From the NCBI RefSeq assembly GCF_026151205.1, contig NC_087077.1:7617983-7681982 (forward strand): 64,000 nucleotides of DNA, given 5' to 3'. Of this stretch, positions 17,659-50,572 are shown piece after piece. How positions within the stretch are numbered: position 1 is the stretch's first letter; every line of letters starts with the position of its first letter. The notes under the pieces are model-generated. The model saw nothing but the letters and a program-made list of their open reading frames with translations. It was not told where the DNA came from and ran no database searches. A program made the translations under genes and the position numbers. Source of the DNA: Bolinopsis microptera. Lineage: Eukaryota > Ctenophora > Tentaculata > Lobata > Bolinopsidae.

Positions 17659-17666
17659 TATTTATA
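17659..17666 (-). promoter_or_regulatory. TATA box, left arm gene
   Basis: TATAAATA on the minus strand, about 315 bp upstream of the start codon, identical in context to 19487-19494 in the right arm. A pyrimidine-rich TCAGTTT initiator-like word lies roughly 30 bp downstream. Confidence 0.55.
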
Positions 17667-19486: not shown

Positions 19487-19494
19487 TATAAATA
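19487..19494 (+). promoter_or_regulatory. TATA box, right arm gene
   Basis: TATAAATA followed about 30 bp later by a TCAGTTT initiator-like word. The leader to the ATG at 19871 is longer than in the left arm because of the 62-bp duplication. A pyrimidine run ending TTTTTTACAG near 19843 could be a splice acceptor in the leader. Confidence 0.55.
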
Positions 19495-19578
19495 CCCTCG
19501 TGAAATATAGCTCACCCGGTTTCAGTTTACTATTTCACACACTGAGTACAATCTTTTGACATTTCAACTTTAAGCTCT

Positions 19579-19702
19579 ATCTTTCAAATACACATTTTTA
19601 TTTTGTAGTTTACGCTATGTGCCTGTCTTCTTTGCCTACTATCTTTCAAATACACATTTTTATTTTGTAGTTTACGCTACGTGCCTGTCTTCTTTGCCTA
19701 CT
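19579..19702. repeat. 62-bp tandem duplication in leader (right arm only)
   Basis: Two units, 19579-19640 and 19641-19702, differ by one base (CTATGTGCC against CTACGTGCC). The left arm has one unit, with the CTACGTGCC form. Confidence 0.9.
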
Positions 19703-19870
19703 TTACTCTAAACTACGTTGTTTTCTACAACTAGTTCTGAGTCCTCCCTTCCTACTCCTATCTGGACTGTGTTGTTTCCTACAACCAGTTCTTTGACTAC
19801 ACTTCTCCCTATCTGAGTTTTACTTATTGGCTGTTTTTTACAGCTAACTCAGTCAACACGACTACTCCTT

Positions 19871-21475: not shown

Positions 21476-21924
21476 AGGTATTGAAGTATTGAATGATATT
21501 ATGATTGATGTTGTGCAAAACTATTACTACCGCTTTATTACTGCCAATTGCTGTTACAATTTGTAGAAACTGATTTATACATTTATACATATGATATCAA
21601 AAAATCAAATCTCAAAAATAACAAAGTAACAATCTGCTCTCTTTAATTATTGAAATCCATCCAAGTAAAAAGTTGTATTACCAGAGAGGTTAAATTTAAA
21701 TTTCAAACAACCTTGTCTACAGCTTCTTGGAAGAAAATGGAACCGGATTCTAGTGGACGTTCTGAAACTGGTAGGGCTACAAAACTAAGTTGGAACACAT
21801 CTTGTTTGAATACTGTTGAACCAAATTCAACTCTCTGCAACAACACAAGCAGACAAAATTTCTCAAAATCCGTTTTATCTGCTCAACTGGTTCTAAATTC
21901 TTGAATCCAGCCAAGGGTATAATG

Positions 21925-23727: not shown

Positions 23728-23940
23728 CCGTATCAAAATGCCTCAAAAACCGTATCATCTGGTTCCACAATCTCGGATTCATCTTCTGGACTTCAGATGT
23801 AACACGCCAAAACCAAAGTATTAAAGCTCTTTGGCAAGCATCGAGTACGATACGACGCGCAATTGTGCTTGAAGTGACGACGCGCACGAGCGATAAGGAG
23901 CTACTTATCGCTCGATCGACCGAGCGATAAGTCCGCGCGG

Positions 23941-23959
23941 CACCCGACTACCATGAGCC
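23941..23959 (-). repeat. Right terminal inverted repeat (19 bp)
   Basis: Complement of the left terminus, followed by host TTA. The adjacent subterminal block (about 23880-23935) repeats GAGCGATAAG and its complement. Confidence 0.8.
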
Positions 23960-24030
23960 TTATAGTTTCTCTGCCGGAACTATTGAGGGTTTACAGAGTT
24001 TCATAGTGTGAAAATGTTAACTACAGCTTA

Positions 24031-31891: not shown

Positions 31892-32230
31892 TTAGTCAAA
31901 GAGAGAGAATCCCATGTCATCATCAGATTCCTCATCAGAGTCTGGTTCTGGCTCCTTCTCCTCCTCAACCTCTGCAGGGGCATCACCAGCAGCAGCGCCA
32001 CCAGATTTGGCAGCAGCACCACCACCACCACTTGGTACAGAGGCCAACTTGCCGAGTCCACTGGCTACGACCTCATCGATGCTCTTGCCGGCGAGTTGTG
32101 CCATGACAAAGGCGAGTTTTTCATCATCAACACCGACTCCAACACTGGATAGGATGGTCTTGATTTCATCAGCTGATGGACTGGCATTTCCTCCCAAGGC
32201 GGCGAGCAGGTAAGCAGCGACGTAACGCAT
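31892..32230 (-). CDS. RPLP2: 60S acidic ribosomal protein P2, copy A
   Basis: A 112-residue protein (human 115) from MRYVAAYLLAALGGN to the conserved acidic tail SDDDMGFSLFD. P2 pairs with P1 on P0 to form the lateral stalk of the large subunit, which recruits translational GTPases; the C-terminal tail does the binding. The tail has Ser where most animals have Gly (MGFGLFD). An Ala/Gly-rich hinge separates the helical N-domain from the tail. The Met at 32230 is chosen because it aligns with all P2 starts; the longer frame has six non-homologous residues. An AG lies about 45 bp upstream. GRWD1 follows 240 bp downstream on the same strand. Confidence 0.95.
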   Translation of the reverse strand: MRYVAAYLLAALGGNASPSADEIKTILSSVGVGVDDEKLAFVMAQLAGKSIDEVVASGLGKLASVPSGGGGAAAKSGGAAAGDAPAEVEEEKEPEPDSDEESDDDMGFSLFD

Positions 32231-32589
32231 GTTTAAGTCTTTGGACACGAAACGAGGACTTACCTAACAAATAGTTTTAGTTAGGGTGACTGGCTGTGGG
32301 TGACATTAAATTTCAAAATATTACAGAGGTATCATACAGAGACTGAATTACGAACACCTTCACTGCCCATTGAGGACTGATTTCCAATAGGAATATAAGA
32401 CAATCTACCATTTAGATTTAAGAAATTTATCGTTCATTTGGTGCTTCGGAGTTATTATTGGACCAGGACTTGAATTTCGCACAGTATATTTTGGACACAT
32501 TTTGAATCAACTTGTAATAAAACTGCTCCTTCAGTGAATTAAAATAAATATAAAACAGAACCGATCAAAACAAATATATTCTGAAATTT

Positions 32590-32928
32590 CTAATCAAAGA
32601 GAGAGAATCCCATGTCATCATCAGATTCCTCATCAGAGTCTGGTTCTGGCTCCTTCTCCTCCTCAACCTCTGCAGGGGCATCACCAGCAGCAGCGCCACC
32701 AGATTTGGCAGCAGCACCACCACCACCACTTGGTACAGAGGCCAACTTGCCGAGTCCACTGGCTACGACCTCATCGATGCTCTTGCCGGCGAGTTGTGCC
32801 ATGACAAAGGCGAGTTTTTCATCATCAACACCGACTCCAACACTGGATAGGATGGTCTTGATTTCATCAGCTGATGGACTGGCATTTCCTCCCAAGGCGG
32901 CGAGCAGGTAAGCAGCTACGTAACGCAT
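32590..32928 (-). CDS. RPLP2: 60S acidic ribosomal protein P2, copy B
   Basis: The predicted 112-residue protein is identical to copy A and the DNA nearly so: one silent difference in the first codons (GCTACG against GCGACG) is the only one seen. The leader is also shared (AGTCCTCGTTTCGTGTC), but the 3' flanks differ, so duplication or gene conversion covered the leader and coding part. An acceptor-like CTTTAG precedes the leader. Both copies look functional. The copies are head to tail, 359 bp apart. Confidence 0.95.
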   Translation of the reverse strand: MRYVAAYLLAALGGNASPSADEIKTILSSVGVGVDDEKLAFVMAQLAGKSIDEVVASGLGKLASVPSGGGGAAAKSGGAAAGDAPAEVEEEKEPEPDSDEESDDDMGFSLFD

Positions 32929-33299
32929 GTTTAAGTCTTCAGACACGAAACGAGGACTTGACCTAAAGTGATTCACTTGGTTAAAACGGAATTTTGACAA
33001 TTCATAAAAACCTCATACGAAAAATCAAACAATTTGAATAATATGGAACTTAATTAACACAAATGAAATGTGCAGTTTAAAAGATAATACAAGTAGAAAC
33101 CTGAGAAAGAATGTCTGTAAACACAGAACAGATACAAGGAAGAAATCAACTAATCAAGTAGTTTCGTACGAAATCAATCAAACCACATCAAATCTACAGC
33201 GGTAGATAAATAATGTTAATTAATGACAATGTGTCAGTTATAACCAAGGAGGGTTCAATGGTATGCGGTATTTTTAATAGGTTAAGTTCGAGGTCGGTC

Positions 33300-33590: not shown

Positions 33591-35171
33591 ATGTGAATTA
33601 TTAAGTTTAAATGTAACGTCCACGACAGCGTTACACTACACAACTCTATTACACATTGCGGAAAGGATAATAAGAAAATGTACCAAATAGTTTACTGAGG
33701 TCACAAACAGACGCTTTCCAGTTCAATGAACAACTGGTAGCAATAAATGAGTTAAGTATCCAGAATCTCGTTTAGAAATGGAGACTAAAAACGATTTCAC
33801 ATCTGAATCCGAGCTCAACGAAAGCAAAACAAGTGTAGGAATTTAATTCAATCAGAAAATAATGTTAAGATTGAAGGTTTAATTTAAAATATTTAACCTT
33901 TTGGTGCTGTATAAAAATAACATTAATTAATTATTTGTATTATCAATTATGGTAATTGTGTACACGTGGAACGACATATCTCGAGACGATCCGCTTTTGA
34001 ACAGTCATCCACTTAACATAATTACAAATATCACAAGGGAGTATCACCTCAATAAATGAAATACAGTTTGAGAGGATAGCCGTAGAAGGCCGAAACTAGC
34101 AGAGATAAGTCAATTTCATGTGAACATGTCTACCATCGATCTTAAGATTATGCAATTGTTTATCTTGGGCCACTGTGGCTCCTTAACATCACCACCGACT
34201 TGTGTACGCAAACTCAAACTTTAATCGATTTACACTAAAACAAATTTTTTATCAACAAGGGTGGATTTAAAAAGCATAGCTACGAACTGAAAGAATCGAG
34301 CAACTAGCGCTCGATTCTAAGACTCAGCATTATCAATTATTTTGTAATGCAAACGAATATTTCAAATGCGCGCCGCGGATTAAGCAACCACAAAGATCTT
34401 AAATCAGTTTTTATTATTAATAACCTATTATATTATATATTATATATTATATGTAAGTTTATAATCTACCAAGACGCGCACAGAGTTGGACTCGCCGACG
34501 GCCGAGTTGGACTCGTCAACAATTAATATTTGAGAGTTTTAATACTTTCAACACTACTATATAACAAACAATTTGAGGATGTCCAATATAAATATGTCCA
34601 TGGCTTGCTAAAGTCAACTGCATCGGGGGTACTATGATGGTCCAGGGGGTGCTGACACAGAAGACTGGCACTCTTAACCTGTTAAGAAGTTAAGTAGTTG
34701 TAGTGGATAATGTTTCTGTTTGGCAATGTATAACTCCATTCACACCACAATCCACAATTGGACAATTGGACAACCCTGATTAATGTGTAGATAGTGTTGA
34801 AAGAATTTTAAACTTAAAACTTGAACTTCACTTCTGATAACTTTTGGGGCTGTGCTCCAAGAACAGGCTGACATATATATATGGCTTATGGATTATATGT
34901 AATGTATTCTGATTAAATGATAGGGCTTGCCAGTCCAACCACCTCATATTTTTCATACTCACTCACTCTCTTGTCCCATGTGTCGTAGTCCGTCAGTCTG
35001 TTCAATTTTTCAATCTTTTGAATCATTTTGACTAATCCAGTTAACACTTTCATTGTTTTCCACAACAGAACATTTCAAACTGCTTTCTGCTCTTCCTTCT
35101 TTTCAGTGAGTGTGCTAGTTGGACGTGAAGGTGCCCCCTGGTCTGCCTGGTACCCCCATTGCCTCTTCACC
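33591..35171. other. Intergenic and possible LINE 5' UTR
   Basis: No gene seen. It holds an AT microsatellite near 34428-34452 and a partial copy of the GGGTGATACTCG-family repeat near 34456-34525. The pyrimidine-rich part from about 34940 is likely the LINE 5' untranslated region; its start was not located. Confidence 0.4.
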
Positions 35172-37157
35172 ATGATGGAAACCCCCACTGACACTCAAGA
35201 AAAGTGTGAGAAACCTCAACCTGTTGCAGACCAGACTTCATCCACTACGGTTCCCGATCAGGATACACCCACCACTTCCTCAGCTTCAGTCATTGACAAT
35301 ATTGACGAAATGCTTAGAGATGTCGATAAACTAATTCATTCAGAAAATCAGGACTCAGAAGAAGACAAAAATGTCAGCAGTCTCCTTAGTTTCTTCTCAA
35401 ATAGATCTGCTCCCCTCGACACCTATCTGTTAACCCACGCACAGAACCTACGCTCAGAGGTAGACTTAATCAAGATTAACATTTGCAGTATCCTGAAACT
35501 TGAAGTAAACAAGTTTGCGATCATTACACCAGCCATGATCAAGAGTTGTTCATCCCTGAACAAACTAACTTTAGCAGAAGGTCTCCTATCCCTGCTAGGT
35601 CTTGCTGAAAGTGTTTGTGCTGTAGTAAGTGGACAGAGATGTGAAAACGAAGTCAAGTCCTCTTCCTACTTGTCAGCTCCCTGCAGCTTGAGCATGCCAA
35701 TGGGTCACACTACCTCGGATGGTAGATCTCTACAAGATTCTCTAGAAGCCATTCAGAAGTCCATCAAGAACCTTAAAGACAACGATAGCCATCTCAGAAC
35801 TCTCGACTCCATCAACAGCAAGCTTGCTGAGCTCAAACTTGACATAAACTGTTTTAAAAACAGTAGGTCATCAAATGTTTCTACCCCTGATCTGCCCATG
35901 CCTCCTTTTAATATAGGGTCACCTGCACCATGTGAAATGGACCAAGAACAGCTTCTCCTAGATGCACAGAAGCATGCAAGTGTAGACGACCCTAAGTCCA
36001 AGCATATTCTGTCGTATGTCCCAGAATTTGTAGATGAAAAATTGAACTCTGAGCTTTTAGTTTTCTTAGACCAACATAAGGAAGCCTTTAATAGTAACTC
36101 CGAAAATGGGCATGGGGTTCTGAGCTTTGGCGAACCTTATCAATACCCCGGGGCTAAAGCTGAAAAACCAAAATCGACAGACTTCCCTGATGTTCTGAAT
36201 GAGCTTGTCTCCAAGATAAAGGAAGAATGTCCTAGTTCAACAATCAATCAGTGCTTGATAAATCGGTACACTGATGGGAACAGTTTTCTTCCTAAGCACT
36301 CTGATAACGAGCAATCACTGGTCCATGATAGTTCCATATTTACAGTATCCTTAGGTGGTGATTGCTCAGTAAAATTCACAAAAAAGGATCAGCTTGAAGG
36401 AGAGGTCGTAGAGACAATAGAGGGACGTAGTCTCTATGTCATGAGCAAACAGTCCCAGTTTCTTTGGGACCACCGAATTGATAAAAGCACAGAAAAGAGG
36501 GACTTAAGATACAGTATTACCTTCCGCTACGTAAGCAGGAGCATCAATGCGACCTTGATTGTCGGTGATTCAAACACCCGGTTCCTCAAATTTGGGGCTG
36601 GAAAAGGAACATTTGGACACAAGCTGCCTGGGAAAAGAATCGAATGTTTCACAATAGATCAGTTAGACCCTGTTCTTTGTGTTGGATACAAGAACGTTGT
36701 AGTACACTGTGGTATAAATAATATCAAGAGGGGAGGGGGTGATGTTAAACATTGGGCTAATGAGCTGACGAAGAAGCTCAAGAATATTTGTGATATGTGT
36801 CCATATTCTAAAGTTATTGTCTCACCCATCCTTCCAACTAGGTCCTCCTGGCTGAATGACAGAGCCATGGAGTTTAATAGTTTATTATTTGGGTACTGTA
36901 ATACTAATACTAGAATAGGCACTTTAGATTTTGACAGTTTTGTTGATGAGGAGGGTCTACTGGACAAGCAGTTTTGTAGATACAAGAAGCCGGATGACCC
37001 AATCCACCTGGGGTCAAGCGGTATCTTTAAACTCTCCCGGGCAATTGCACATAAGATCCTAGGTAACCCCGTTGATGGGAGGTTGTTCAGTGATGTTACC
37101 AAGGCCCAAAAAAGATTTTCCCCACGTTCTCGTAGATCCGTAGTTATAAATAAATAA
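35172..37157 (+). CDS. LINE ORF1: AlkB-like dioxygenase + SGNH hydrolase
   Basis: Open for 661 residues from the Met at 35172, followed by another Met; the frame extends upstream without an ATG. Residues 1-300 are Ser/Thr- and acid-rich with helical stretches and may serve multimerisation and RNA binding. About 315-455 is AlkB-like: NRYTDGNSFLPKHSDNE gives the iron-binding HxD (His376, Asp378), WDHRID gives the distal His434, and RYSITFR (446-452) is the RxNLTFR-type 2-oxoglutarate motif. About 460-640 is SGNH hydrolase: GDSNTR nucleophile Ser467, HCGINN block III and DPIHL block V. AlkB enzymes remove alkyl groups from nucleic acids; SGNH esterases occur in ORF1 of CR1-type LINEs. Both catalytic sets look complete. 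The combination in one ORF1 is the unusual point. Confidence 0.85.
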   Translation: MMETPTDTQEKCEKPQPVADQTSSTTVPDQDTPTTSSASVIDNIDEMLRDVDKLIHSENQDSEEDKNVSSLLSFFSNRSAPLDTYLLTHAQNLRSEVDLIKINICSILKLEVNKFAIITPAMIKSCSSLNKLTLAEGLLSLLGLAESVCAVVSGQRCENEVKSSSYLSAPCSLSMPMGHTTSDGRSLQDSLEAIQKSIKNLKDNDSHLRTLDSINSKLAELKLDINCFKNSRSSNVSTPDLPMPPFNIGSPAPCEMDQEQLLLDAQKHASVDDPKSKHILSYVPEFVDEKLNSELLVFLDQHKEAFNSNSENGHGVLSFGEPYQYPGAKAEKPKSTDFPDVLNELVSKIKEECPSSTINQCLINRYTDGNSFLPKHSDNEQSLVHDSSIFTVSLGGDCSVKFTKKDQLEGEVVETIEGRSLYVMSKQSQFLWDHRIDKSTEKRDLRYSITFRYVSRSINATLIVGDSNTRFLKFGAGKGTFGHKLPGKRIECFTIDQLDPVLCVGYKNVVVHCGINNIKRGGGDVKHWANELTKKLKNICDMCPYSKVIVSPILPTRSSWLNDRAMEFNSLLFGYCNTNTRIGTLDFDSFVDEEGLLDKQFCRYKKPDDPIHLGSSGIFKLSRAIAHKILGNPVDGRLFSDVTKAQKRFSPRSRRSVVINK

Positions 37158-37765
37158 AATAAATAAATAAAGTCAATTTTTACAGCACAGCAATATATAT
37201 CTAAATATCAGATCCTCTGTAATCATAATGTATAAAAAAAGGAGCTTTTCTCTGTGCTGAAGGATGAATCAAGGCAGATCATGGTTCTGTTAGCAGGCCA
37301 CCCTAGTTATGGACAATACATATATATAAAATAATTAAATTATAATTTTAAAATTGTGTCAAAAGTTATGTCATGATAGCCAAACTAATATGCGAAATTT
37401 GCTGCTGCTGCAATAGGACCTGTGCATGGTGGACATCCATTCATAACTTGTCAGATGTGTGACAAAATAATGCACAAAAAATGCAAAACTGATGAGAACA
37501 TAGTCAAATTTCGAGATGCAACATACTGCAAAATATGCACTGATGCCAATGATATCGTTCGGTATAACCCTTTCTACCAAGCTCCCCACTTTGCAAACAA
37601 TGGCCTCATTGATGATGAGCCAGTTAATTATATTGAATCTATCTACAATAGCTCAAAGATTCTTGAAAATTGCAAAACATTCTCAATAACAGAGTTGAAT
37701 GCCACCATCCTACCTAAAAATTCAGCTAAATATTTGTCAAAATTATTTCTAAATATTGATGGAAA

Positions 37766-38599
37766 TGTTGGAACCCTGTTCTTGGGTTAATTAAATAACA
37801 AATAATACTCAATTATTATAAATACAAATTAGATGAATAAAGAGGTTATACAAATCTTGTGTCAAAAGTAACCTTGTTACTCTACAAAGTACTCTCTTAA
37901 ATAGTGAATGATTGATATGGTGTGACTCAGTAACTCACAATACTCTGCTCTGACTAATAGTTAAAACACATTTCAATACTAAACTAAACAATGTCTTTTT
38001 TACTATTAGATTAAACTACTATTAAATTAAAACTACTACTCCTGATGATGATGTTCTTCTTACTATATGAGGGACTTCTGAATGATGAGGACTTCAAGTA
38101 AAACTGGAACTGATAACTATAAAACAAAAACCCTGGGGGAAAACTACCGTGAGTAAAGTGAAAGGTAATCCACGTGAAACTATAAATGAAAGTGAAAGAG
38201 GAAGCGGGAACTCCTAGACTAAACTACTAAACTATAACTATAAACTACTTACCACTCTTTCCACGTCACAGAACACAGATAGTATCTGTCGACTGGAATC
38301 TATGGGATCACTAAAACAACGTCACTCCTCTCCCTTCTGCTACGCTAGAGTCTGGAGTCGACAACGTCACTCCTCTCCCTTCTGCTACGCTAGAGTCTGG
38401 AGTCAACTAAACACTGGACACTCCTCTCTCTTCTGTTACTTCAACTAGAGTCTGGAGTCGAGCCTTGTCTGCCTTCTGGAGTCCCTTTACCCCAACACTG
38501 TATATACAATCACTGGAACTAAACCTTTGCTAAAGTGAGATACAGGGTTAGTAATATGAAGTACAAAAACAAGCTACAAATAGAATTAAGTTTCTAACA
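37766..38599 (-). repeat. 3' LTR
   Basis: In element orientation this is the downstream LTR. It contains short internal duplications of a CTCTCCCTTCTGCTACGC-type unit. Its copy is at 42625-43458. Confidence 0.9.
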
Positions 38600-38612
38600 T
38601 TCCCCCTACTTT
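38600..38612 (-). promoter_or_regulatory. Polypurine tract
   Basis: On the minus strand AAAGTAGGGGGAA directly precedes the 3' LTR start TGTTAGAAAC, as needed for plus-strand priming. Confidence 0.7.
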
Positions 38613-40458
38613 AAAAAAGAAAAAGTACTTACTAATAATTTAACTCATGACTTTTACAATCTTAAAGTCATAACTCCCTATACTTTCTTTGTTAAAAAAT
38701 ACTATCCGACTATCCGAGTTAAAATTAGGAAATAAACTCTAGCAAAAACCGTAGAGTTAAGAATATTCTAATCCCCACACGCAACACAAAAACGTGTCGT
38801 GCGCGCTAAACGAAAAAGATACTTTCTATGAGTTTGAGCTACAAATGCGCGGCTCAAACAAAGGCAAATCTAATACGTGTCATGTCCACTGTCATAAAAG
38901 CAGATAACTAAAAAAGCAGTTAACGATTATTCCATATTCGGCGAGTCACGTGGTACAAGTGGATTAAATCTCTGTTAACGCGGGAAAAACATCCGCCGTA
39001 AAACAGGCTAGTGGCTAAAATGACTGCCTTCCACGCTGAGCGTGAGATCTGAGAGATATAATACTTGTACAAAACGTCCGATAGAATTAATACAGTCTAA
39101 CTATTAGCTAATTAACTATCAAAGTTCTTAATACGAAAATCTCTTTTCTATGAACGGAATTGAAGCATCGTTCTAGGACTGACAGGTGCACAAAAAATAC
39201 CCGTCCAACACTGTAATCAAGTGTGATCTTTAGAGATTTCTGTATCGAGTTATCTTAATGACAGAAAAACTGCGTACTAAAACTAAATATTAGGAGCTAT
39301 TCAAGCTTTAAACACAACCTCTAGAGAGTCAATAATGAGTCACTAACAAATCATTGACACACACCACTGTACTAAACAGTTCTAAAACGTAAAATACATG
39401 AATTCTGTCGTTTAAAAACAGGTTCAAACTGAGTCCCTAAAGGCTCGGGATCAGTGAAGAACATGTAATAGCATGTTGATCGAAACGACAGCATTCTTAT
39501 AAAACCAAAAAACTCACGCTGAGCAAGCTGCTCCTAGCTCATCCCAACAGAAAATACCAAACATCCCCTGTTAACACTTCCTACAGAAGATGCAAGTTAA
39601 TAAAGTAATATCAGGTAAACACTTTCATTTCTTTTAGAAGAAAGGATCGTCTTTCTGAAAAGTAAGTTTGAAACTGAAATGTTAGACTTTTAGAAGTAGG
39701 AACCTGAAATATTCTGTTAGCGTTAATTTTATTACACATGTCACGTACAAAATGTACTTTAAATTGTATCTATTAATCCTTATTATCTCTACACCATGTA
39801 ATAGAAAATTTAGCAAATCAACTGACAAATGTGACCGTGCGCTACAACACAAAGAAAAGGAGCGCTAAAGCTGGTACACACGTCTAAATTCGCTAACTAA
39901 TCTATCTTTCTCCCAAAATTGTTGAAAATTTAGCAAATACAACCAAAGTTCAGTTACCAGTAAGAGAAAAGAAAAGAAAGGATAGACTGGTTCCTAAAAA
40001 TGGGATTCACTAACTTTTCATCAAACATTCCCAACTTACTACATTCTCAGTAAAAAATATGAACTAACGACAAAAAATTGTCAAAATATCCTTCCCAAAA
40101 CTTCTGTTCGAGAAACTTCTCTAGAACATAAAAACACAAAATTAATATACGTGTAAAGAGTTACAAATGTTTAAAAAATTAAAATCTGTTAAATACAAAC
40201 ACCTCGTGCATGTTAAAAGTCTCTGAAAGGTTAAAAATGTAAAAATGACTCGTTACAAAGTTGGTAATTCTAACAATACTAATATATACACACACCTTTA
40301 AAGTTAAAAGTTTATTACAAATGACGTTAAAAAGTTATTGTTTAACCAAATTGACATTTCAAACAACAAATAATTTGAGCAAAAATATTCAATCTCTTTC
40401 TACAACATAAAGTCCAAAACAGTTATACTCTCTCTGACATATTCACAGTATCCTTGAT
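38613..40458 (-). other. Non-coding internal region of LTR element
   Basis: About 1.85 kb with no long open frame in the space where a complete element would carry integrase, reverse transcriptase and RNase H. AT-rich, with no obvious pol remnants, so pol was replaced or lost long ago in this family. Confidence 0.6.
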
Positions 40459-42513
40459 CTATGACTTAAGCGAGCTTGCTGAAAACTGCACCTCTCTTCG
40501 TGAGACATCCTGAACAATCTTTAACCTCTGCACTTGTACAGAGTTATCCAACTCAACTGATACGGGTTCACCGTTTGACTCGTCCAGTCGTACATTGTAA
40601 AGATTTTTGTTCTTCCCTGTAGGTTTCCCGGCTCTACCTATCACCAAGGCATTATTCCAATCATCACTCTCCGAGGATCTGAACCTGATAATGTCATTCT
40701 TCTTTACACCCACGCCTGTTCTGGTTTGACACACACTTTCCCAATCCGACTGATTCACTGACAGATCTGACAGATTCACACTCCCTGAAACTGAACTTAC
40801 AGTTCCATGGTCATCTGGCTCAATTTCTGTCTCAATTTCTGGCTCACTTTCTGGCTCACTGTCTTGATCCACATTACCTGAAACTGAGCTCACAACTCCA
40901 TGGTCCTCTAGCTCACTATCTGGCTCAATTTCTGGCTCATTGTCTTGCACACTCTCATTGTCAGCTCCACTGAATGTTTCTAACTCCTCCTCTTGATCAC
41001 TTTCATCGTCACTTAGTGACCATGGCGATGTAATCTTCTCCTCTAAAACAGGACGGACCTTAATTTCTGTTGCATGATTAGTTCTTCCAGAATCTGTTTG
41101 GCTGATAGAACTTTCACATCGTCCTATGGGTATCATCATGTGTCCTGACTTAGTGATCACTAGATTCTCTTCTCCTCCGAAAGCATAAACTTTGTCAGTT
41201 TCAGTATCGATCTTCATCTTCATCTTTTTCATGGACTCTCTAGACAGTAACAGAGGAATATCATTTTCCACAATAAACACGTTTAAAGTTACTTTCTGAC
41301 CACATATTGTTACTGGGAGTGCTTTTTGTATCCTGGCTGTAACTGCATCTCCATCCCCGAAACAAAAATTCTTCTCACAAGGAGTCACTTTGACCTCTTC
41401 ATGTTCAGCTGATGTGAGAGATTCCTCGAAGACTGTCAGCCATTTCTTTCCACACACTGTGGAGCTAGCACCTGTATCTAAAAGTGCTTTATTTGTCGCT
41501 TCTCCCATAAGGTACGTGATACACTTGTTTTCATCTTTTAGTTTAAAGTCAGACTCAAAGAATGTAAGCTTCTTCTCTCCAAATGTGTTGTACTTACAGT
41601 CTCTCATCATATGGTCTGTTTCCTTACAAATATGACAACGTAAGGGTCCTGATTGTTGGGCTTGTGCTCCTCGTCTGGATCTAAATGGAGCTTGTTGATA
41701 CACGTTTCCTGAACTCTGTCCTTGAAACGCAGGTCTTTGTCCGAAGGGTCTTTGTCCGAAAGGTCTCTTAGATGAATAAAAATCCCTGTGTTGGTGGTAT
41801 CTTTGTTGATAAAAAACTTTCTGAGGGTCTTCCTCCTGGTTGCTCTGGTCATCACCAAAATGTTCTGAATTGTTGATGTCGTACTGTTGAAAATAAGTAT
41901 TTACAGGCTCTTCTTTAATCTTTGGTTTTCCGATGGAATATGTTTCATCGCTTGCGCCGCTTGCGCTTGATGAAGAAGAAGATGTATTAGTATAATCTTC
42001 TCCGTATGCTCTCTTAAGCTGGGATTCCATATTCTCGTAGCTTAACTTAGAGACCGTTGCCCTGATTAACGTCTTTTGATGGTCCGAGAGATTAGCATGA
42101 TGTAATAAGAAGTACGCTAGTACCCCATCTTCAAATACCACAGTAGCACCACGCTTCTGCACAAGGCTCTTGTAACGATGGCTAAATTCTCTCACATACT
42201 CTTCCATGGGCACTTCCTTGGGTCTTCTGTAGTTCATGAAGCTGTCAATGGATGTAAAGACTGACTGTGTCTGGTCTTTTTCATATAACTTATCCAGCTC
42301 GGCAATGAGAACATCTATTCCTCCATCTATGGATAACTTTTCTACATCTAGCTGTATAGCCACAGCTTCTGGTTTTCCAGACATATTCATGATTAATGCA
42401 GCTGCTCCTGCCTCAGGCTTGACGGCAGTCACCTTCTTCCACCACTGAACTCTCCGTTTCCAATCTGTATAGTTGGACTTCTCATCAAGAACAGGTACTC
42501 TATCACCTCCCAT
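40459..42513 (-). CDS. Gag-protease polyprotein of LTR element
   Basis: An intact 684-residue frame starting MGGDRVPVLDEKSNYTDWKR. Residues 1-170 are helical and gag-like; about 240-285 is a Gln/Arg-rich linker; a CCHC zinc knuckle lies at 293-306 (C-x2-C-x4-H-x4-C); an aspartic protease active site LLDTGAS is at 344-350. An acidic repeat region (DSEPESEPEIETEIEPD) follows, then a C-terminal block with DDWNNALVIGRAGKPTGK, a string type seen in other aquatic-animal LTR polyproteins. The frame then stops with no integrase or RT. Probable role: RNA packaging and particle assembly. Superfamily (Copia or Gypsy) is left open. Confidence 0.85.
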   Translation of the reverse strand: MGGDRVPVLDEKSNYTDWKRRVQWWKKVTAVKPEAGAAALIMNMSGKPEAVAIQLDVEKLSIDGGIDVLIAELDKLYEKDQTQSVFTSIDSFMNYRRPKEVPMEEYVREFSHRYKSLVQKRGATVVFEDGVLAYFLLHHANLSDHQKTLIRATVSKLSYENMESQLKRAYGEDYTNTSSSSSSASGASDETYSIGKPKIKEEPVNTYFQQYDINNSEHFGDDQSNQEEDPQKVFYQQRYHQHRDFYSSKRPFGQRPFGQRPAFQGQSSGNVYQQAPFRSRRGAQAQQSGPLRCHICKETDHMMRDCKYNTFGEKKLTFFESDFKLKDENKCITYLMGEATNKALLDTGASSTVCGKKWLTVFEESLTSAEHEEVKVTPCEKNFCFGDGDAVTARIQKALPVTICGQKVTLNVFIVENDIPLLLSRESMKKMKMKIDTETDKVYAFGGEENLVITKSGHMMIPIGRCESSISQTDSGRTNHATEIKVRPVLEEKITSPWSLSDDESDQEEELETFSGADNESVQDNEPEIEPDSELEDHGVVSSVSGNVDQDSEPESEPEIETEIEPDDHGTVSSVSGSVNLSDLSVNQSDWESVCQTRTGVGVKKNDIIRFRSSESDDWNNALVIGRAGKPTGKNKNLYNVRLDESNGEPVSVELDNSVQVQRLKIVQDVSRREVQFSASSLKS

Positions 42514-42613
42514 GATGAAAACTGAAATCTAGTGTTAGGTGTTAAGTTGTTAGGTGTTAAGTGTTAGTTAAAATATACAAAAAATAAATACGGTCCGGTG
42601 TAACGTAGTTCTT

Positions 42614-42623
42614 CCTGCTACCA
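42614..42623 (-). promoter_or_regulatory. Primer-binding site (initiator tRNA-Met type)
   Basis: On the minus strand TGGTAGCAGG begins one base after the 5' LTR end. TGGTAGCAG complements the 3' end of many initiator Met tRNAs. Confidence 0.6.
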
Positions 42624-42624
42624 C

Positions 42625-43458
42625 TGTTGGAACCCTGTTCTTGGGTTAATTAAATAACAAATAATACTCAATTATTATAAATACAAATTAGATGAATAAA
42701 GAGGTTATACAAATCTTGTGTCAAAAGTAACCTTGTTACTCTACAAAGTACTCTCTTAAATAGTGAATGATTGATATGGTGTGACTCAGTAACTCACAAT
42801 ACTCTGCTCTGACTAATAGTTAAAACACATTTCAATACTAAACTAAACAATGTCTTTTTTACTATTAGATTAAACTACTATTAAATTAAAACTACTACTC
42901 CTGATGATGATGTTCTTCTTACTATATGAGGGACTTCTGAATGATGAGGACTTCAAGTAAAACTGGAACTGATAACTATAAAACAAAAACCCTGGGGGAA
43001 AACTACCGTGAGTAAAGTGAAAGGTAATCCACGTGAAACTATAAATGAAAGTGAAAGAGGAAGCGGGAACTCCTAGACTAAACTACTAAACTATAACTAT
43101 AAACTACTTACCACTCTTTCCACGTCACAGAACACAGATAGTATCTGTCGACTGGAATCTATGGGATCACTAAAACAACGTCACTCCTCTCCCTTCTGCT
43201 ACGCTAGAGTCTGGAGTCGACAACGTCACTCCTCTCCCTTCTGCTACGCTAGAGTCTGGAGTCAACTAAACACTGGACACTCCTCTCTCTTCTGTTACTT
43301 CAACTAGAGTCTGGAGTCGAGCCTTGTCTGCCTTCTGGAGTCCCTTTACCCCAACACTGTATATACAATCACTGGAACTAAACCTTTGCTAAAGTGAGAT
43401 ACAGGGTTAGTAATATGAAGTACAAAAACAAGCTACAAATAGAATTAAGTTTCTAACA
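42625..43458 (-). repeat. 5' LTR
   Basis: The upstream LTR in element orientation, 834 bp, same length and sequence as the 3' LTR as far as read. It should contain the promoter; no TATA box was confidently placed. Confidence 0.9.
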
Positions 43459-46400
43459 GGAAATGCATCAAACTTTGACAACTTTGCAGTTGAATTGTCT
43501 TGTATCGACCACAAATTCTCTGTTATCGGCCTTGCAGAAACAAACACTAATCCCGAAAATGGAACTCTGTATCAGCTTAACGGATACTCCTCCTGTTACC
43601 AATCACGCTACTTTTGCCAAGAGAAAAACCAGTTCAAGGGTAAAGGGTCAGGAGTGTGTCTTTATCTACACGATTCCCTTAACTTTAACAAAATCACTGA
43701 CTTATCTCTCTGTAATGAACACATAGAATCACTGTTTGTATCTATCACTAGCTTGCAAGATCCAACTGTCGTAGGGGTTATATACCGTCCCCCAAACGCA
43801 TCACTTGAGATGTTCAACAAAGCGTATGAATGTATTCTCTCAAAACTGAATGGCAAAAAAGTATATATTCTTGGTGATTTCAATGTTAACATTTTGAACG
43901 ACCCATCTCCATCAGAGGACAAATTCCAAGAAATAATATTCAACAACGGCTTCATACCAACCATATCAGTACCAACTCACCAAATGCCTGGCTGTTCCAG
44001 GACCTGTATTGACAATATCCATACCAATGTCGTAGATCAATCCCTTACTTCTGGTGTGATATCTGACAAGATCTCCCACCATCACCCTATATTCACTCTT
44101 ATTGAACTTTCCCCTGACTCTGTGCCAACACCTGATTCATCAGACAAAATTACTATACACTACGACTATAGTAATGCTAACTTAGAGAAGCTCTGTCTTG
44201 AAATAGAAAACGATATAGATAGGTTCCACCACAGCTGTAACACATTTGACTCTTTCGTGCAGTTATTTCAAGAAAAGATAGATTTGTCTTGCAAACTTCT
44301 AACTCCTAGAACCACTAAACGTAACAGCATAACCAACCCTTGGATCACCCAGGGCCTCATTAACTCCATCGACAAGAAAGCTAGGTTGTATTTCGAATGG
44401 AAGAAGACTTGTACATTAAAACTACCTGATGGGGATCCAAACAAGCACATCTACTACAAGGAATTCGACAAGGTTATCAAGAGCTTAATAAAGATGGCAA
44501 AGGCTATGTGCTATACTCAAAAATTCGAAAAGTACAGCATGAACTCAAAAAAAACTTGGGAAATTATAAATGAACTCCGTGGCAAAAATTTGTCTAGATG
44601 TAAGGACGATTTTGTTATAGATGGCCAGAGAGTTACTTGCAGACGAATAATTGCTAACAAATTCTGTGAATATTTTACATCTCTTCAGAATAAAACAAAT
44701 ATTCAGAATAAAACAAATATTATATTCAAATATCTTTATTCAACAATATTAAATCATTATAGAACCTAATTTGTGGCTTGATCGTGGCTTTATCTCAATA
44801 AAAATGTACTGTCAAACAATAGTATTTCTCTGGAACCAGTAGAATCATTTGCTCAGTTTATGTCTAATTCGGTATCTGACTCCATATACCTGGAAGAAAC
44901 TAATGAAGAAGAAATTATAGAGGTGATCAGAGATTTTCAAAATGGTAAGGCGAGTGACATACCTATAGTTGTTGTAAAAAAACCGGCCAAGCTCATTGCT
45001 GGTACCTTGGCTAGGCTTTACAACACATGTATACAAAGTGGTACATTCCCAAGTATTTTTAAAACTGGTAAAGTTATTCCTATTTACAAGAAAGACAATA
45101 AGGAATGCATTGAAAATTATCGGCCTGTATCAATATTACCTTTATTTGGAAAGATCTTCGAGAAGGTCATTTATAAACGCCTCTATAATTTCTTCACATC
45201 TAAAGGTGTACTAACAGACTCACAGTTTGGATTTAGAAAAGGCCATTCTACCACCCATGCTTTACACAAATCCATAGACTCCGTTACTAAGTCTCTAGCA
45301 AGCAATAAACATGTCGTAGGGATATTCATTGACTTGAGCAAAGCCTTCGACACCCTTGATCACGATATTCTTTTATGCAAATTAAATTCCTACGGTATTA
45401 GGGGCACAGCACTTACCTTACTAAAAAGCTATTTGACTAACAGAAAGCAGTATGTTATGTATAACGATGTACCATCAGAAACAATGAGAAAAGACAATTT
45501 TTTTTTGAGAAAAGACAATTTTATTATTTATCACCAATTCAATACATAATCAATAAATATATATCCGAATAAATTTGATTTAAAATTAAATGAAACAAGT
45601 ATGCTAGCAGCTAGCGCGCTTGTATTTAATAAATATTCACGCTGTTAAAAAATGGGTCTTACCACACGTGAAATTTGGAGTACCACAAGGGTCAATTCTA
45701 GGGCCGTTACTCTTCCTATTGTATATGAACGATATAGTAAACTGCTTTTCAGACAGTGAGGTGAAATTTGTACTTTATGCTGATGACACTAATATCTTCA
45801 TATCAGGACCATCTAGAGAAGCAACATACAAAAAAGCCAACTTAGTACTTAAACATGTCTCGATTTACATGAAATGTAATCTACTTCATATCAACATGTC
45901 CAAATGCTGCTACATACATTTTAAACCTGCCTCTGAATATGATGACACCTGTGCACGGACCAGACCATTTGCTATCCTGCTAGATGAATCTAGATCAATA
46001 TTCATCAATGGTAAGGTTATTACTAAAGTCAAGGATACCAAATTCTTAGGTGTTGTTATAGATAGTAAGCTAAACTGGATTGCCCACATGCACTACATCC
46101 GTAAAAAACTGCGATCTATGACTGGTGCAATCTGCAGAATTCGGCACTCGATACCTTCTGAACTATATTTGAAAATATATAATGCTCTTTTTGAATCACA
46201 TCTCAGTTATGGTATAAGTGTTTGGGGTGTTGTCCTCAAAGAACGGTCCAATGATAGTCTTTTCATCACACAGAAGCACTGTATAAGGATCCTTTTTGGC
46301 GACCTTGACTCATATTTAGATAAACAATCAACATGTGCACGTACTAGACCATACGGTATGCAAAAACTAGACCATAAACACTTTGAAAAGGAGCATACAA

Positions 46401-47058
46401 AACCCATTTTTAATAGATTAAAAATTCTTAAAGCTCAAAACTTGTACAAATATCACTGTATTTTAGAATTCTCTAAGATTATCAAGTACCACTGCCCATA
46501 CTCCCTTTATAGGCTATCAACATTTCAAACCGTGCAACGAGTCTAATGGTTATTCTCCTAAATAAATCAAATACCTTTTTGTTTAATGCAGCCAAGCTTT
46601 GGAACGCTGTTCATAAACAAATTTTAACTTCAAGCAATTGCTTAGAAACGTCCATTAGCTTGATAAAACTGAGAACCAAAGCACTATTAATACAAGCACA
46701 GGCAGCTGACTTGAAAGATACTTGGACTCCAAACAATTTTAAATTGCAGTAATCAAATCTAATTGCAGCGGCACACACTTACTATTACTATCATGATTGT
46801 ACTATAGACAGAAAATCTTTCAAATCGATTTTGGGGGCTTTTTAAACATTTGTTGTAATGTTTTTAGATAAGTTAAATATCTAAATTTATAAAATTTTTT
46901 ATCGGAATGAATTAATTGATATTTAATAATTTATTCGGTAGGTTTATCTGGTATTGATATTGATTATATTGATATTGTTATTATTGAACGAAGCTAACTC
47001 TAGACATAGTTAATACTACTTCTTTTAAGAAAGGGACTTGGAGTATAAACGACCAAGT

Positions 47059-47060
<2 letters not shown>

Positions 47061-47098
<38 letters not shown>

Positions 47099-47190
47099 GT
47101 GTAACCCAAAAAAACCCAAAAAAACCCAATCCCAGTATTACCTTTTTCAGGGTAGGAGTTGGGTTTTTTTGGGTTTTTTACAAATTTTTC
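47061..47190. mobile_element. Stem-loop MITE with G37 tract, copy 1
   Basis: A run of 37 G (47061-47097) is followed by TGTGTAACCCAAAAAAACCC and, after about 35 bp, its complement GGGTTTTTTTGGG. A second copy lies at 49275-49365 with a 19-base C run. Both have CAAGTTT/CAAACTT just outside the homopolymer. Confidence 0.7.
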
Positions 47191-47289
47191 ATTTGAAGGA
47201 AATAAAATCATGTAGGCACCTAGCAAAACAATTATCAGTACAACATCACTGTTGTGGTTCATCACTACAACATCACAATAGATATAATC

Positions 47290-48150
47290 GCTTAAATATC
47301 ACCCAAAAGCAGTATTTTATTCACTGATGTGCTCAGAAGAAGTTGGCCATCCAGATATGATATCAGCCATATGTAATGCTCACTTCGATGGCCATGGCAA
47401 ATTGAGTTAGTAGGGACGCAACTCACTGATGACCCCAACCCTGACTGCAACCGGTACGAGAGGAATAAAGCCTTTCTTCTCACCTTCACGATCTCTGTTT
47501 CCGTTTTCCTGATCATCCGCTTAACGAGAAACCATGCTCTATCTCCAACTGAAAGAATCTTGCAGTTACCATCAGCTGCATGATCACATGTGATATTAAG
47601 TGATATCTTCGCTTGTTTATGGCCCTGGAGTCGCTAAAATCTTGACTGGGATGGCATTCGATCTCGCCCTCCATTGAGGCAAACCTCAACAGCCGTATCA
47701 TGATGCAGAGCATCACAATACACAGTTACTATTTTCGCCCATTCCTCTGATGAGTCAATATCCTCCACTTCCTCTTCTTCATCATCTGTTTCCGCTTCGT
47801 CACTCTCTGCTCCGTCAGAAGATGGTTGGAAAGCCTCTCCTTCAAAGCTATAGTGTTCTTGAAGGAGTTCTCTACCCTTGAGACTCCCTTCTTCATAGCT
47901 TGTAACAATCTTGGGATTGAAGTATCTTTACCTCTAAATGGTTTCTGCTTTCGGATGCGGTATAACAAGCTTGTTTCGAGGGTGGGCAACTGTTACAGGG
48001 ATCAAACTTTTGCCGAGTGCATCAAGCTCGAGGGAACGCGAACGGTTTGATTTGCCCATGCCAACCAACATATCCTTAGAACACAGATTAGTTCTAATGC
48101 CTGCATGGAGGCCTATGCGCAGGAGAGCATAAAGTCTGCTCGCAGGCATC
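47290..48150 (-). pseudogene. Possible decayed protein-coding remnant
   Basis: The minus strand shows protein-like strings in shifting frames: an acidic run (ETDDEEEEVEDIDSSEEW), then DHAADGNCKIL and MIRKTETEIVKVRRKAF. The DGNC string recalls OTU proteases carried by some transposons, but no second catalytic motif was found. The family is not identified. Confidence 0.25.
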
Positions 48151-48519
48151 GGATGTTAACAGCCAGGGCATAAAGTGTTGATAACTGTTGTCAGCTGTTA
48201 TGAATGTACAGCATCAGACCCTCGCCTGTAATAATCGCATCGTCAAAATTCTCAACATGTCTCTTAATGGAAAGCCCAGGCTCACTGTCATCACATGCTA
48301 CAGTCCTACAGAAGCCTCATCTGATGAAGAGGCATGAAATCTTTTTTGTCTAAAACCAAGCATCTTACAGTTAATTTAGTAGGAGAGGAGCCACACACAA
48401 TAATTTTTAAGGACGGACATGCCTTAGAAGAAGTTTAGGATTTTAGTACAACGGAGCACGACTTTAGGTTACGCAAGGCCAAGGCATGGGCTGCCTACCA
48501 CAAAATTTAGGCTATATGG

Positions 48520-48966
48520 AGGTCCAATTTGCGCCGAGATTTTAAGATCCGTCTGTTCAAGCTACGGTTGAATCAATCTTCCTGTATGGAACGAAAACGT
48601 GGACAATAACAGAATCTTTAAAGAAAAGAATAGACGGATGTTACAGTAGAATGCTTCGGATGGCCCTAAACGTTGACTGGAGAGGACATCGCACCAACAA
48701 GGAGGTCTTTGGATCACTCCCAAGAGTTATTTCGAAGATACAGGCCAGAAGAATGAGGTTGGCTGGGCACATCCAGCGACATGATGACCTGGCAGCACAC
48801 CAACTTCTCCTTTGGGAACCTAGGGAGGGGTAGACCACCGCTCACCTTCGTCGATAACCTAATAAGTGACACTGGACTCAAGAACACTGGGGAGATTAAG
48901 GAGCTTATGGCGGACAGAAAGCTTTGGAGACACATCATCGAGACTCGGACTCTGAAGCCGCCTTAA
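48520..48966 (+). pseudogene. LINE RT C-terminal fragment
   Basis: Translation gives LYGTKTWTITESLKKR-like strings, then GCYSRMLRMALNVDWRGH, GSLPRVISKIQARRMRLAGH, HQLLLWEPREG and a C-terminus like LWRHIIETRTLKPP. This is the conserved tail downstream of the RT domain in a widespread invertebrate LINE group. One frameshift near 48830 splits it; everything upstream is missing (5' truncation). Confidence 0.7.
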
Positions 48967-49274
48967 GTAAAGTAATTTAAGTCATGTGCTTTGACTTGCC
49001 CTTGACCTTCGTCATAGCCTCCTTTCATGACAGGAGAACATATTTGCCACGTTTGGCAGATTTCCACTTTGTGCATTCATATGGATTATATCTCGATGAA
49101 CGAGACATCCTGTTTGCTATCGTGATAACATACTATCAATATAAACACACTTATATACTATGTAAACTATCTATTAAGTTAAGACATGGGAACAACACGT
49201 AGGTAAGACTCAGTGGGAAATAATTCACATTCAATACAATTAATGAAATGGCTAGAATTTTGTTTAAATGTTGT

Positions 49275-49365
49275 TTAAAAAACCCAAAAAAACCCAATCC
49301 CAGTATTACCTTTTCTTGGGTAGGAGTTGGGTTTTTTTGGGTTACACCCCCCCCCCCCCCCCCCC
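49275..49365. mobile_element. Stem-loop MITE with C19 tract, copy 2
   Basis: Same stem (AACCCAAAAAAACCCAA and its complement) as 47098-47190, inverted so that the homopolymer reads C19 at 49347-49365. The loop matches copy 1 (TCCCAGTATTACCTTTT). Confidence 0.7.
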
Positions 49366-50572
49366 AAGTTTGCATAAATTTCTACCCAACCAAGAACTCA
49401 GGAGGCAAAGGTGGGTGCTTAAACTTTTGGTCTGCACTCTCCGATCCTGCATCACCCTGGATTCTTCTCGACGTATCTTTGTAAAAGTTATATATCTTTT
49501 AGTCAATCTCTTGCTACTCCAAGTCCCCTAAGATATCTGATCTAAAGTTCGTGCTAGTTATATATATGAAATATATTTTTGTCTGCTTTAATTGATACTA
49601 AATAAAATTGTTGTTTTCTTGAAATTGTTGTTTTCTTGAGACAACTATTTTACGAGTAGACAGTTTTTGGGAGTTCCAAATAGTTTCTGATTATTCTGAT
49701 TTGCGACAAATGATACTGCACTGTTAGGATAAACGACGTTTCAAAGTAACAACTTCTTATTCATGCTCAAATTATTTGTTATATAGTAGTGTTGAAAGTA
49801 TTAAAAATTTTACGAGTATCACCCATTAAATTATTTTTTAAATCTGGATGAATGTTAAATATTGACCTTTGAGATGTTTTTCTAACAACAATGTAGAAAC
49901 AAAGTTTAAATTTGTTAACAATCGGGTATTAATTGTTTCCGATAAATTACCGTTCTTTAATCATTTTATTTGCTTCTAGGGAGACCAAGCTTTAGTAAAA
50001 TGTTCATAAACATTACACTACACACCATTTTTTAAATATCATAAATTATAAAATATGGCACAGTACAGCCTGGCAAAATAACAAATGGCAGATTGAGCGG
50101 CACCCAGTAATCATTTTATCGGTTTAATGTTTTCATTTTTGTAATTTATTTATTGGGCGACGCGCGCTCAGCCTATTATTTCACCATATTTTTTACAAAC
50201 ACAAATGTCTGAGGACCCCGGGTAATATAATATATATAATATAAGTATATATATATATATTATAAGTAATTTATTAAAATTTTATATCACTTGGATGTTG
50301 GATTAGCAGTGTCAATCCTTTCGATCTTTCCAGCTCATATATTTACATTAATTGTAGCTTTGCATTGTTCGTCATATATGAGTTAAGATGGTTAAGATCC
50401 CCGATGCTCGGAAAAGCTTAACAAGGTTTCGTATTAGTTGCCACAATCTTTTACATTCTACCAAACGTTCTCGATCGGGAATCGTCTTTAACTTATTTTG
50501 GGGAATATTTTGACTTTATATAACGACGTCGTCGTAATGACACAAGTGACTGATCAACCACCTTATTTGATA
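49366..50572. other. Intergenic, no gene recognised
   Basis: AT-rich, with TA microsatellites near 50229-50265. The phrase CTGAGGACCCC with a GGCTGAGCGCG-like partner occurs here (about 50165-50220) and at 12930-13005, hinting at another short repeat family. No coding exon found. Confidence 0.35.

Follow-up and report, generated by a model that had tools for sequence, protein, structure and literature searches.

The proteins encoded by the first open reading frame (ORF1) are the least understood part of long interspersed nuclear elements (LINEs), the commonest animal retrotransposons. A survey of 448 Jockey-superfamily elements assigned to ORF1 only RRM, CCHC, Tnp22, PHD, coiled-coil, zf/lz and esterase domains, with one subgroup giving no hit (PMC4120745); the terms 'alkb', 'dioxygenase' and 'demethylase' have 0 occurrences in that survey. 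An ORF1 esterase has been described in CR1, RTE, RTEX and Penelope-like elements across many animal phyla (PMC3905857). Here we describe a LINE of the ctenophore Bolinopsis microptera, located in a 64,000-nucleotide stretch of contig NC_087077.1 (the window, in whose positions coordinates are given), whose ORF1 at 35172-37157 on the + strand joins an AlkB-type 2-oxoglutarate (2OG)-Fe(II) dioxygenase domain to an SGNH esterase domain.

A sequence-only reading of the window had held that AlkB in front of SGNH is not a standard LINE architecture. This agrees with the published ORF1 types, which lack AlkB in the available text of the survey (PMC4120745): the frame matches none of types I-V (RRM/CCHC, Tnp22, PHD and esterase, with V unclassified), AlkB being an extra domain. 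A literature search, with subscription papers thinly covered, listed no paper describing an AlkB-bearing LINE or Helitron. The ORF1 esterase and a retrotransposon AlkB (in orchids) are known already; what is unusual here is that AlkB is fused to SGNH, that the pair is so widespread within a single genome and that it occurs in two classes of transposon. AlkB-SGNH elements may occur more widely than in ctenophores, or may stand in Repbase without comment. We propose, with a probability of roughly 0.55, that this ORF1 would equip the LINE with two enzymes, an AlkB that removes methyl groups from the element's single-stranded nucleic acid and an SGNH esterase alongside it.

Results

ORF1 carries an AlkB dioxygenase followed by an SGNH esterase

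As the sequence-only reading had stated, 35172-37157 reads through from ATG to stop as a single frame of 661 codons without a break, organised as follows.

35172..37157, + strand: ORF1, 661 aa, with N-terminal region, AlkB domain and SGNH domain (frame reading, Pfam)
35172..35996, + strand: N-terminal region, residues 1-275, without Pfam match
36009..36539, + strand: AlkB-type 2OG-Fe(II) dioxygenase domain, residues 280-456 (PF13532 9e-18, PDB matches)
36552..37091, + strand: SGNH esterase domain, residues 461-640 (Pfam match below cut-off, nine-sequence alignment and profile)

Residues 320-452 match PF13532 (2OG-FeII_Oxy_2, AlkB) with an E-value of 9e-18 and 65.6 bits, twice the curated Pfam cut-off of 31.2 bits. 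Searching the PDB with the single ORF1 sequence gave ALKBH8 at 8.9e-8 and also ALKBH3 and ALKBH2. The HxD...H iron triad and the R-x(5)-R pair for 2OG binding that characterise the AlkB family are present: the iron and 2OG ligands are H376, D378, H434, R446 and R452, with HSD at 376-378, the distal histidine H434 inside WDHRID, and RYSITFR at 446-452. The full AlkB signature read earlier from the letters is thus located residue by residue and backed by a profile match.

The H, D, H, R and R positions are invariant across 12 element AlkB sequences, one of them from a Helitron. Among 72 AlkB loci of the genome, which had been picked by that motif, 64 have all Fe and 2OG ligands intact; the remaining eight are three cellular genes, four downstream pieces and a broken copy. 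These counts bear on the idea that the AlkB domain has lost catalysis and persists as a fold that binds nucleic acid, which might be entertained as several LINE ORF1 types bind nucleic acid through other folds (PMC4120745). The ligands would drift if only binding were kept, and of all the readings considered here we regard this one as the least probable.

For the second domain, Lipase_GDSL_2 matches residues 491-616 at an E-value of 0.0025 and 18.8 bits, below the Pfam cut-off of 32.9. When nine SGNH domains including that of ORF1 were aligned (L071 and L044 left out) and used as a profile, the best PDB match was 4c1b_A, a zebrafish LINE 'ORF1-encoded protein', at 2.3e-16; S467, G487, G514, N516, D609 and H612 are invariant in this alignment. 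The SGNH signature that had been claimed therefore stands in its catalytic blocks and by profile, and falls below the Pfam cut-off when the single sequence is taken.

Both domains are encoded by a multicopy element

Copies were sought in the genome that contains the window, an assembly of 264.65 Mb in 232 contigs. Of 961 first-look candidates for ORF1 the best 67 were scored, the window copy included; they fall into identity tiers of 93-100%, 72-91% and 49-58%, and in 25 of them the frame is unbroken over nearly the whole protein. The AlkB segment is kept among these matches. Three cellular-looking AlkB genes stand apart from the elements, one ALKBH2-like (3.9e-60) and two ALKBH3-like (2.5e-39 and 1.6e-27; together L031-L033). 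These separate cellular genes, divergent from the element AlkB, together with the 67 scored matches, rule out a one-off capture of a host exon. Of the three outcomes that the sequence-only reading had named as refuting it (no significant AlkB profile hit, copies lacking the segment, a one-off host capture), none was seen within the reach of these checks.

Linkage to a reverse transcriptase (RT) points the same way. The best 150 of 5337 candidate matches to the window's RT piece were scored, and 109 of these places were compared with nearly all scored ORF1 matches and with eight PF13532 AlkB places; the 41 rows left out were mostly truncated, interrupted or repetitive. At 60 of the 109 places the RT lies within 8 kb downstream of an ORF1 or AlkB match on the same strand, and 38 of those 60 lie at 1685-1725 bases from that match. 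A sister copy of the window element (L007 with L061, adjacent pieces on C1) has ORF1 and then directly an ORF2 in which both the endonuclease (Exo_endo_phos 0.002, below cut-off) and the RT (RVT_1 5e-37) are matched, and the ORF2 of a further family, L037, gives Exo_endo_phos 6e-6 and RVT_1 3e-39, so that the apurinic/apyrimidinic (AP) endonuclease and RT expected of a CR1-type LINE are found in both. The sequence-only reading had taken a PHD-endonuclease-RT ORF2 as its sign that the pair is element-encoded. That conclusion holds by the 67 scored matches and the RT linkage; the ORF2 of the window copy is broken, and the PHD-like finger at its start (37422-37790) has no Pfam match at 0.01 and is called from Cys/His spacing only.

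AlkB and SGNH are under purifying selection

The ratio of nonsynonymous to synonymous divergence (dN/dS) was estimated from an alignment of 24 ORF1s without stops, representing four subfamilies and L065; L012, L013 and L023 (stops), L020 (different start) and L029 and L030 (partial) were left out. Comparisons with L065 gave no usable dN/dS, and since synonymous divergence (dS) exceeds 1 in some pairs the ratios are rough. Between subfamilies AlkB gave 0.089, 0.106, 0.126, 0.127, 0.124 and 0.075, where the 0.075 comes from 25 of 40 pairs, the others being saturated; SGNH gave 0.071-0.115 and the N-terminal region (residues 1-275) 0.160-0.201. In five chosen pairs the AlkB ratio was 0.050-0.146, with bootstrap upper bounds of 0.126-0.260. 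The roughly 50 codons in frame before the ORF1 ATG had dN/dS of 1.02-1.11 in the four comparisons most diverged there and 0.22-0.92 in six comparisons with few changes; after the ATG the frame stays below 0.21 between subfamilies. Both AlkB (0.075-0.127) and SGNH (0.071-0.115) are under strong purifying selection, a point that the sequence-only reading had put up for checking, and this, with the PF13532 E-value of 9e-18, rules out a chance or degenerate AlkB match. Both domains, then, are element-encoded, have kept their catalytic residues and are under purifying selection.

In ORF1 pairs among L001-L028, dS differs about fivefold or more between segments of one pair; in the A1-B1 pair it is 0.35 in SGNH and 1.6 in AlkB. 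Because dS differs so strongly within the same pair, the data point to recombination between ORF1 subfamilies.

The pair recurs in several architectures

PF13532 was run on the genome, with the best 150 of 587 candidates scored and 151 matches reported, and AlkB queries from two further families gave additional matches (150 scored each). AlkB-like matches lie at no fewer than 384 distinct places, that is, at least 384 after listed duplicates and most interrupted rows were dropped; some are partial, and the three L031-L033 places look cellular. No relative was found among the viral contigs searched with P0001. The element frames that were read have the following architectures.

N-terminal region, AlkB, SGNH: the window family and L065
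N-terminal region, AlkB, SGNH, other families: L037, L053, L066 and L067
PHD-like finger, AlkB, SGNH, five families: L044/L077, L068, L069, L071 and L072
AlkB first, long linker, SGNH last: L047, L050 and L057
Short ORF with divergent AlkB directly before a strong SGNH: L079
SGNH, Pro/Ala-rich linker, AlkB, repeats, Helitron Rep, helicase: L052 with L062

AlkB is above the Pfam cut-off in every family scanned but L079, where a match to another 2OG family (0.0022) falls below it. For SGNH only L079 is above the cut-off; matches are below it in the window ORF1, L037, L053, L044, L052, L066, L067, L068 and L077, and at the thresholds used there is none in L047, L065, L069, L071, L072 or L045, the last with its ORF cut at the locus start. 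In families without a Pfam match, SGNH is called from motifs and from the nine-sequence alignment, where the six residues of its catalytic blocks (S, G, G, N, D, H) do not vary, and in L047/L057 a profile comparison gives SGNH at 92% and 6e-7. The PHD matches of the PHD-AlkB-SGNH families are below cut-off in four of the five, with none in L071.

Each unbroken, full-length element ORF that was read contains both AlkB and SGNH, and to this extent the two travel together, which the sequence-only reading had proposed to test. The stricter claim that they are never apart is not tenable. The best 150 of 424 SGNH candidates were scored; for 85 of them an AlkB match from the PF13532 run or one of the further AlkB queries lies on that strand no more than 1.5 kb away, and for 65 it does not, although two of these have some other AlkB match listed at up to 5 kb. 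Among the 65 are 28 that resemble a single family of about 521-526 aa, along with members of a 426-aa family, truncated copies, one probable cellular gene and ten matches below the Pfam cut-off. Two candidate AlkB-free cases were dropped: L079 (478 aa) has a divergent AlkB that PF13532 misses, and L078, which lies in front of a 58% RT relative, lacks its 5' end and is uninformative. L079 has relatives with ORFs of 478, 485, 502, 470, 455 and 513 aa, in which AlkB is divergent and SGNH lies directly behind it.

A Helitron carries the pair in reverse order

One AlkB match (C10:16875843) lies inside an open frame of 3388 aa, and further Helitron-type copies have open frames of 3366, 3321, 3226, 2459 and 2225 aa. 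The 5' part of the 3388-aa frame (L052) matches Lipase_GDSL_2 at 3.4e-6, below cut-off, and AlkB at 1.9e-21; its continuation, L062, in the same frame by coordinates, matches Helitron_like_N (PF14214, 3.3e-22) and PIF1 (PF05970, 6.8e-22). The Rep and PIF1-type helicase that mark a Helitron are thus in one protein that begins SGNH-AlkB, as read in one copy only, and the order is reversed with respect to the window LINE, SGNH preceding AlkB. Across seven loci (21 pairs) dN/dS is 0.19 in the Helitron AlkB, against 0.65 and 0.62 in the flanking segments. The Helitron SGNH searched alone against the PDB gave no significant match (best 0.011).

ORF1s are swapped in front of a nearly constant ORF2

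The comparison took 38 close copies out of 47 listed ORF2s of the L037 family, the remainder being eight of greater distance and one second half. An AlkB ORF1 match lies within 6 kb upstream of 25 of the 38, with none listed for the other 13. It is of L053 type in 11 (at 921-927 bases) and of L037 type in five (at 1123-1129 bases), with nine at other distances. The two ORF1 types are 55% identical, and their ORF2s (C5, C13 and others) are 94-100% identical to the query. AlkB-SGNH ORF1s have been swapped at a nearly constant ORF2, as judged from ORF2s of such identity sitting behind ORF1 types so different. Reticulate ORF1 evolution described for CR1 and L2 agrees with this swapping (PMC4120745).

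By profile the element AlkB is nearest ALKBH3 and ALKBH2

A profile of the 12 element AlkB sequences matched ALKBH3 (9.8e-31), ALKBH2 (7.8e-27), ALKBH8 (9.6e-18) and E. coli AlkB (4.9e-10) in the PDB, with ALKBH1 (2e-4), ALKBH6 (1e-3) and ALKBH5 (8e-3, the last three of 47 matches) weaker; 6mA-demethylase and ALKBH1 structures ranged from 2.6e-5 to 8e-4. These values point to ALKBH3/ALKBH2 rather than ALKBH5 as the nearest relatives. The element domains have R-x-S, as in ALKBH8, in place of the R-x-N of ALKBH2/3 (RxNLTFR).

The ranking bears on the main rival of our proposal, according to which AlkB would erase regulatory marks, N6-methyladenosine (m6A) or 1-methyladenosine (m1A), from element mRNA and so evade host surveillance, with no part in repair. 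LINEs and Helitrons both make mRNA, and one such role would serve both classes; moreover, an orchid Gypsy AlkB demethylates m6A RNA in vitro (PMC9289625). The element profile, however, is far nearer ALKBH3 and ALKBH2 (1e-30 and 8e-27) than the m6A eraser ALKBH5, and we consider this rival unlikely, if the strongest of those weighed. Equally, the orchid-type expectation of a closest match to ALKBH5 is contradicted by a value of only 8e-3.

ALKBH2-type enzymes repair DNA. A second alternative, in which AlkB would act on DNA and clear the element, when it inserts or later, of N6-methyladenine (6mA) or alkyl marks, gains from the profile matches to ALKBH2-type relatives, and a DNA substrate would also serve the Helitron. 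It sits poorly with the weak matches to 6mA-demethylase and ALKBH1 structures and with the presumed packaging of RNA by ORF1 proteins (PMC3905857), and appears distinctly improbable.

The shared R-x-S and the presence of ALKBH8 among the matches raise a further possibility, ALKBH8 being the hydroxylase of 5-methoxycarbonylmethyluridine (mcm5U). AlkB and the esterase might form one pathway in which AlkB hydroxylates a modified nucleoside and the esterase then cleaves an ester, for example that of mcm5U, and every unbroken full-length element ORF that was read does have the pair, whichever of the two orders and element classes it shows. Such co-occurrence can also follow if a single cassette was inherited by common descent, the variable order and linkers imply no channelling, and the known ORF1 esterase binds lipids (PMC3905857); we hold a joint pathway to be very improbable, more so than action on DNA.

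The phylogenetic tree without ALKBH8 has 19 element rows and five cellular rows, so that cellular references are few. In it, a branch supported at 98/97 places 14 LINE rows and the Helitron on one side, and cellular ALKBH2/3 with the AlkB-first LINE (L047, L057) on the other, and a branch at 88/84 separates all 19 element rows from the five cellular rows, the host genes L031-L033 grouping with human ALKBH2/3 apart from the elements. When the very long ALKBH8 row is included the 98/97 split is not recovered and only the 14 LINE rows separate, weakly supported at 33/69; with ALKBH8 and L079 the LINE-Helitron split is at 45/74. With the ALKBH8 row, and with L079 added to it, ALKBH8 falls among the elements and the deep forks lose support. 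A clade of the LINEs without the Helitron is disfavoured in the approximately unbiased (AU) test (p 0.028), for a group named after the first tree had been seen. The simplest reading of these trees is one old transposon AlkB lineage common to LINEs and Helitron. A second capture by the AlkB-first LINE (L047, L050, L057), whose AlkB is nearest cellular ALKBH2/3 among the elements, is possible; one capture would be equally compatible, because all 19 element rows share one side of the 88/84 branch.

The window copy and its surroundings

The LINE copy in the window is interrupted by several inserts, whose boundaries were taken from a blastn comparison with the sister copy.

34536..49622, + strand: LINE copy, approximate extent, nested inserts included (blastn with L007 and L061, 97-99% identical)
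37148..37363, no strand: short insert at the ORF1/ORF2 junction, not in the sister copy
37364..37767, + strand: ORF2 5' end, Cys/His-rich PHD-like stretch (Cys/His spacing, sister comparison)
37766..43458, - strand: LTR (long terminal repeat) retrotransposon nested in ORF2 (sister comparison; identical LTRs)
37766-38599 and 42625-43458, - strand: LTRs of the nested element, 834 bp each, identical (repeat comparison)
40459-42513, - strand: gag-like ORF of the nested LTR element (zinc knuckle below cut-off)
43459..44685, + strand: ORF2 continued, endonuclease (Exo_endo_phos below cut-off)
44686..44791, no strand: short insert in ORF2 (sister comparison)
44792..45486, + strand: ORF2 continued, first part of reverse transcriptase (RVT_1 1.1e-18)
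45487..45665, no strand: short insert in ORF2 (sister comparison)
45666..47061, + strand: remaining reverse transcriptase, C-terminal part, start of the 3' untranslated region (RVT_1 6.6e-15)
47062..49363, no strand: 2.3-kb insert in the 3' region (sister comparison)
49364..49622, + strand: LINE copy 3' end (sister comparison)

Since both 834-bp LTRs are identical, the retrotransposon at 37766-43458 inserted very recently. ORF1 is intact, but ORF2 is cut by the LTR element and the short inserts, and the window copy can therefore hardly be expected to move on its own.

Elsewhere in the window lie a large inverted repeat (13852-18026 and 19127-23960) with arms 97.6-99.9% identical and mirror copies of a 390-aa Pro/Ser-repeat ORF, a direct tandem duplication of 1244 bp (2922-4165 and 4167-5410, 99.5% identical), and a partial duplicate of a 60S acidic ribosomal protein gene region (31893-32267 and 32591-32966, 98.7% identical).

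Discussion

We favour repair or demethylation of single strands as the role of the AlkB domain, given its ALKBH3/2-like profile and the single-stranded intermediates common to LINEs and Helitrons. The ORF1 protein would coat the element's nucleic acid, and AlkB would strip methyl groups from the single-stranded RNA template and the first complementary DNA strand. Its most likely targets would be lesions or marks of the m1A and 3-methylcytidine (m3C) type that stop reverse transcription, with m6A as an alternative; demethylation would allow complete copying and undo host marking, while the esterase might tether or mature the particle at membranes or lipids. In the Helitron the pair could be a single-stranded-DNA version of the same job. 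Rolling-circle transposition involves single-stranded DNA and ALKBH3 acts on single strands, so that such a role would fit. For an AlkB carried by a transposon there is a precedent in RNA demethylation in vitro (PMC9289625). The Fe(II)/2OG chemistry, the nucleic-acid substrate and the benefit to transposition are inferred from the sequence and its relatives.

Several points weigh against this proposal. With the ORF2 of the window copy broken, any activity has to be supplied in trans or by sister copies; AlkB-SGNH LINEs whose ORF2 is uninterrupted do occur in the genome. The R-x-S in place of the R-x-N of ALKBH2/3 may signal another substrate, and a protein or lipid as the AlkB substrate is possible. 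The fold prediction from the single sequence of residues 277-661 was uninformative, with a mean predicted local distance difference test (pLDDT) score of 35.9. Finally, the zebrafish ORF1 esterase bound lipids, not oligo(A) (PMC3905857), so the ORF1 protein need not sit on RNA by way of its esterase.

An AlkB domain inside ORF1, selected and present in hundreds of copies, suggests that the chemical modification of its nucleic acid has a bearing on how the element spreads. AlkB-SGNH ORF1s would offer a direct handle on the question whether, in an early-branching animal lineage, hosts turn methylation of RNA or DNA on transposons. By also occurring in a Helitron, the pair connects two classes with little in common mechanistically but single-stranded intermediates and mRNA. 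More tentatively, and with somewhat less than even confidence, AlkB and SGNH might be a portable two-enzyme cassette that passes between transposon classes: LINE families and the Helitron share an AlkB apart from cellular ALKBH2/3, whole ORF1s are swapped and the enzyme order is free. If so, base methylation or alkylation of single-stranded intermediates would be a main barrier to transposition here, against which the elements carry their own eraser.

Among described systems, Kapitonov and Jurka reportedly found in 2003 a CR1-like LINE ORF1 with a PHD finger and an esterase. Five families here likewise have a PHD-like finger and then SGNH, but with AlkB between them. The type IV esterase ORF1 of CR1/L2 elements, such as zebrafish ZfL2-1 ORF1p (4c1b), is alike in having SGNH in ORF1 and an ORF2 with AP-type endonuclease and RT (PMC3905857, PMC4120745), and differs in that the type, in the available text of the survey, is without AlkB (PMC4120745). 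The ALKBH5-like ORF of orchid Ty3/Gypsy elements is also a retrotransposon-borne AlkB with a conserved active site, for which RNA demethylase activity was shown (PMC9289625). It is, however, a separate ORF of ALKBH5/plant ALKBH9B type in plant LTR elements, with no SGNH partner mentioned in the available part of the paper (PMC9289625), whereas here an ALKBH3/2-like AlkB is fused to SGNH in LINEs and a Helitron. Plant RNA viruses (Alpha- and Betaflexiviridae, Closteroviridae) likewise are parasitic genomes with AlkB, but of RNA viruses (PMC9289625). In the platyfish, an SGNH hydrolase has been mobilised by a Helitron as a captured multicopy gene (PMC4021074). Here, by contrast, SGNH and AlkB stand in one open frame with Rep and helicase. 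The AlkB-bearing plant RNA viruses are not known to carry SGNH. Human and host ALKBH2/ALKBH3 are the closest AlkB subfamily by profile and differ from the element proteins in being cellular proteins without SGNH.

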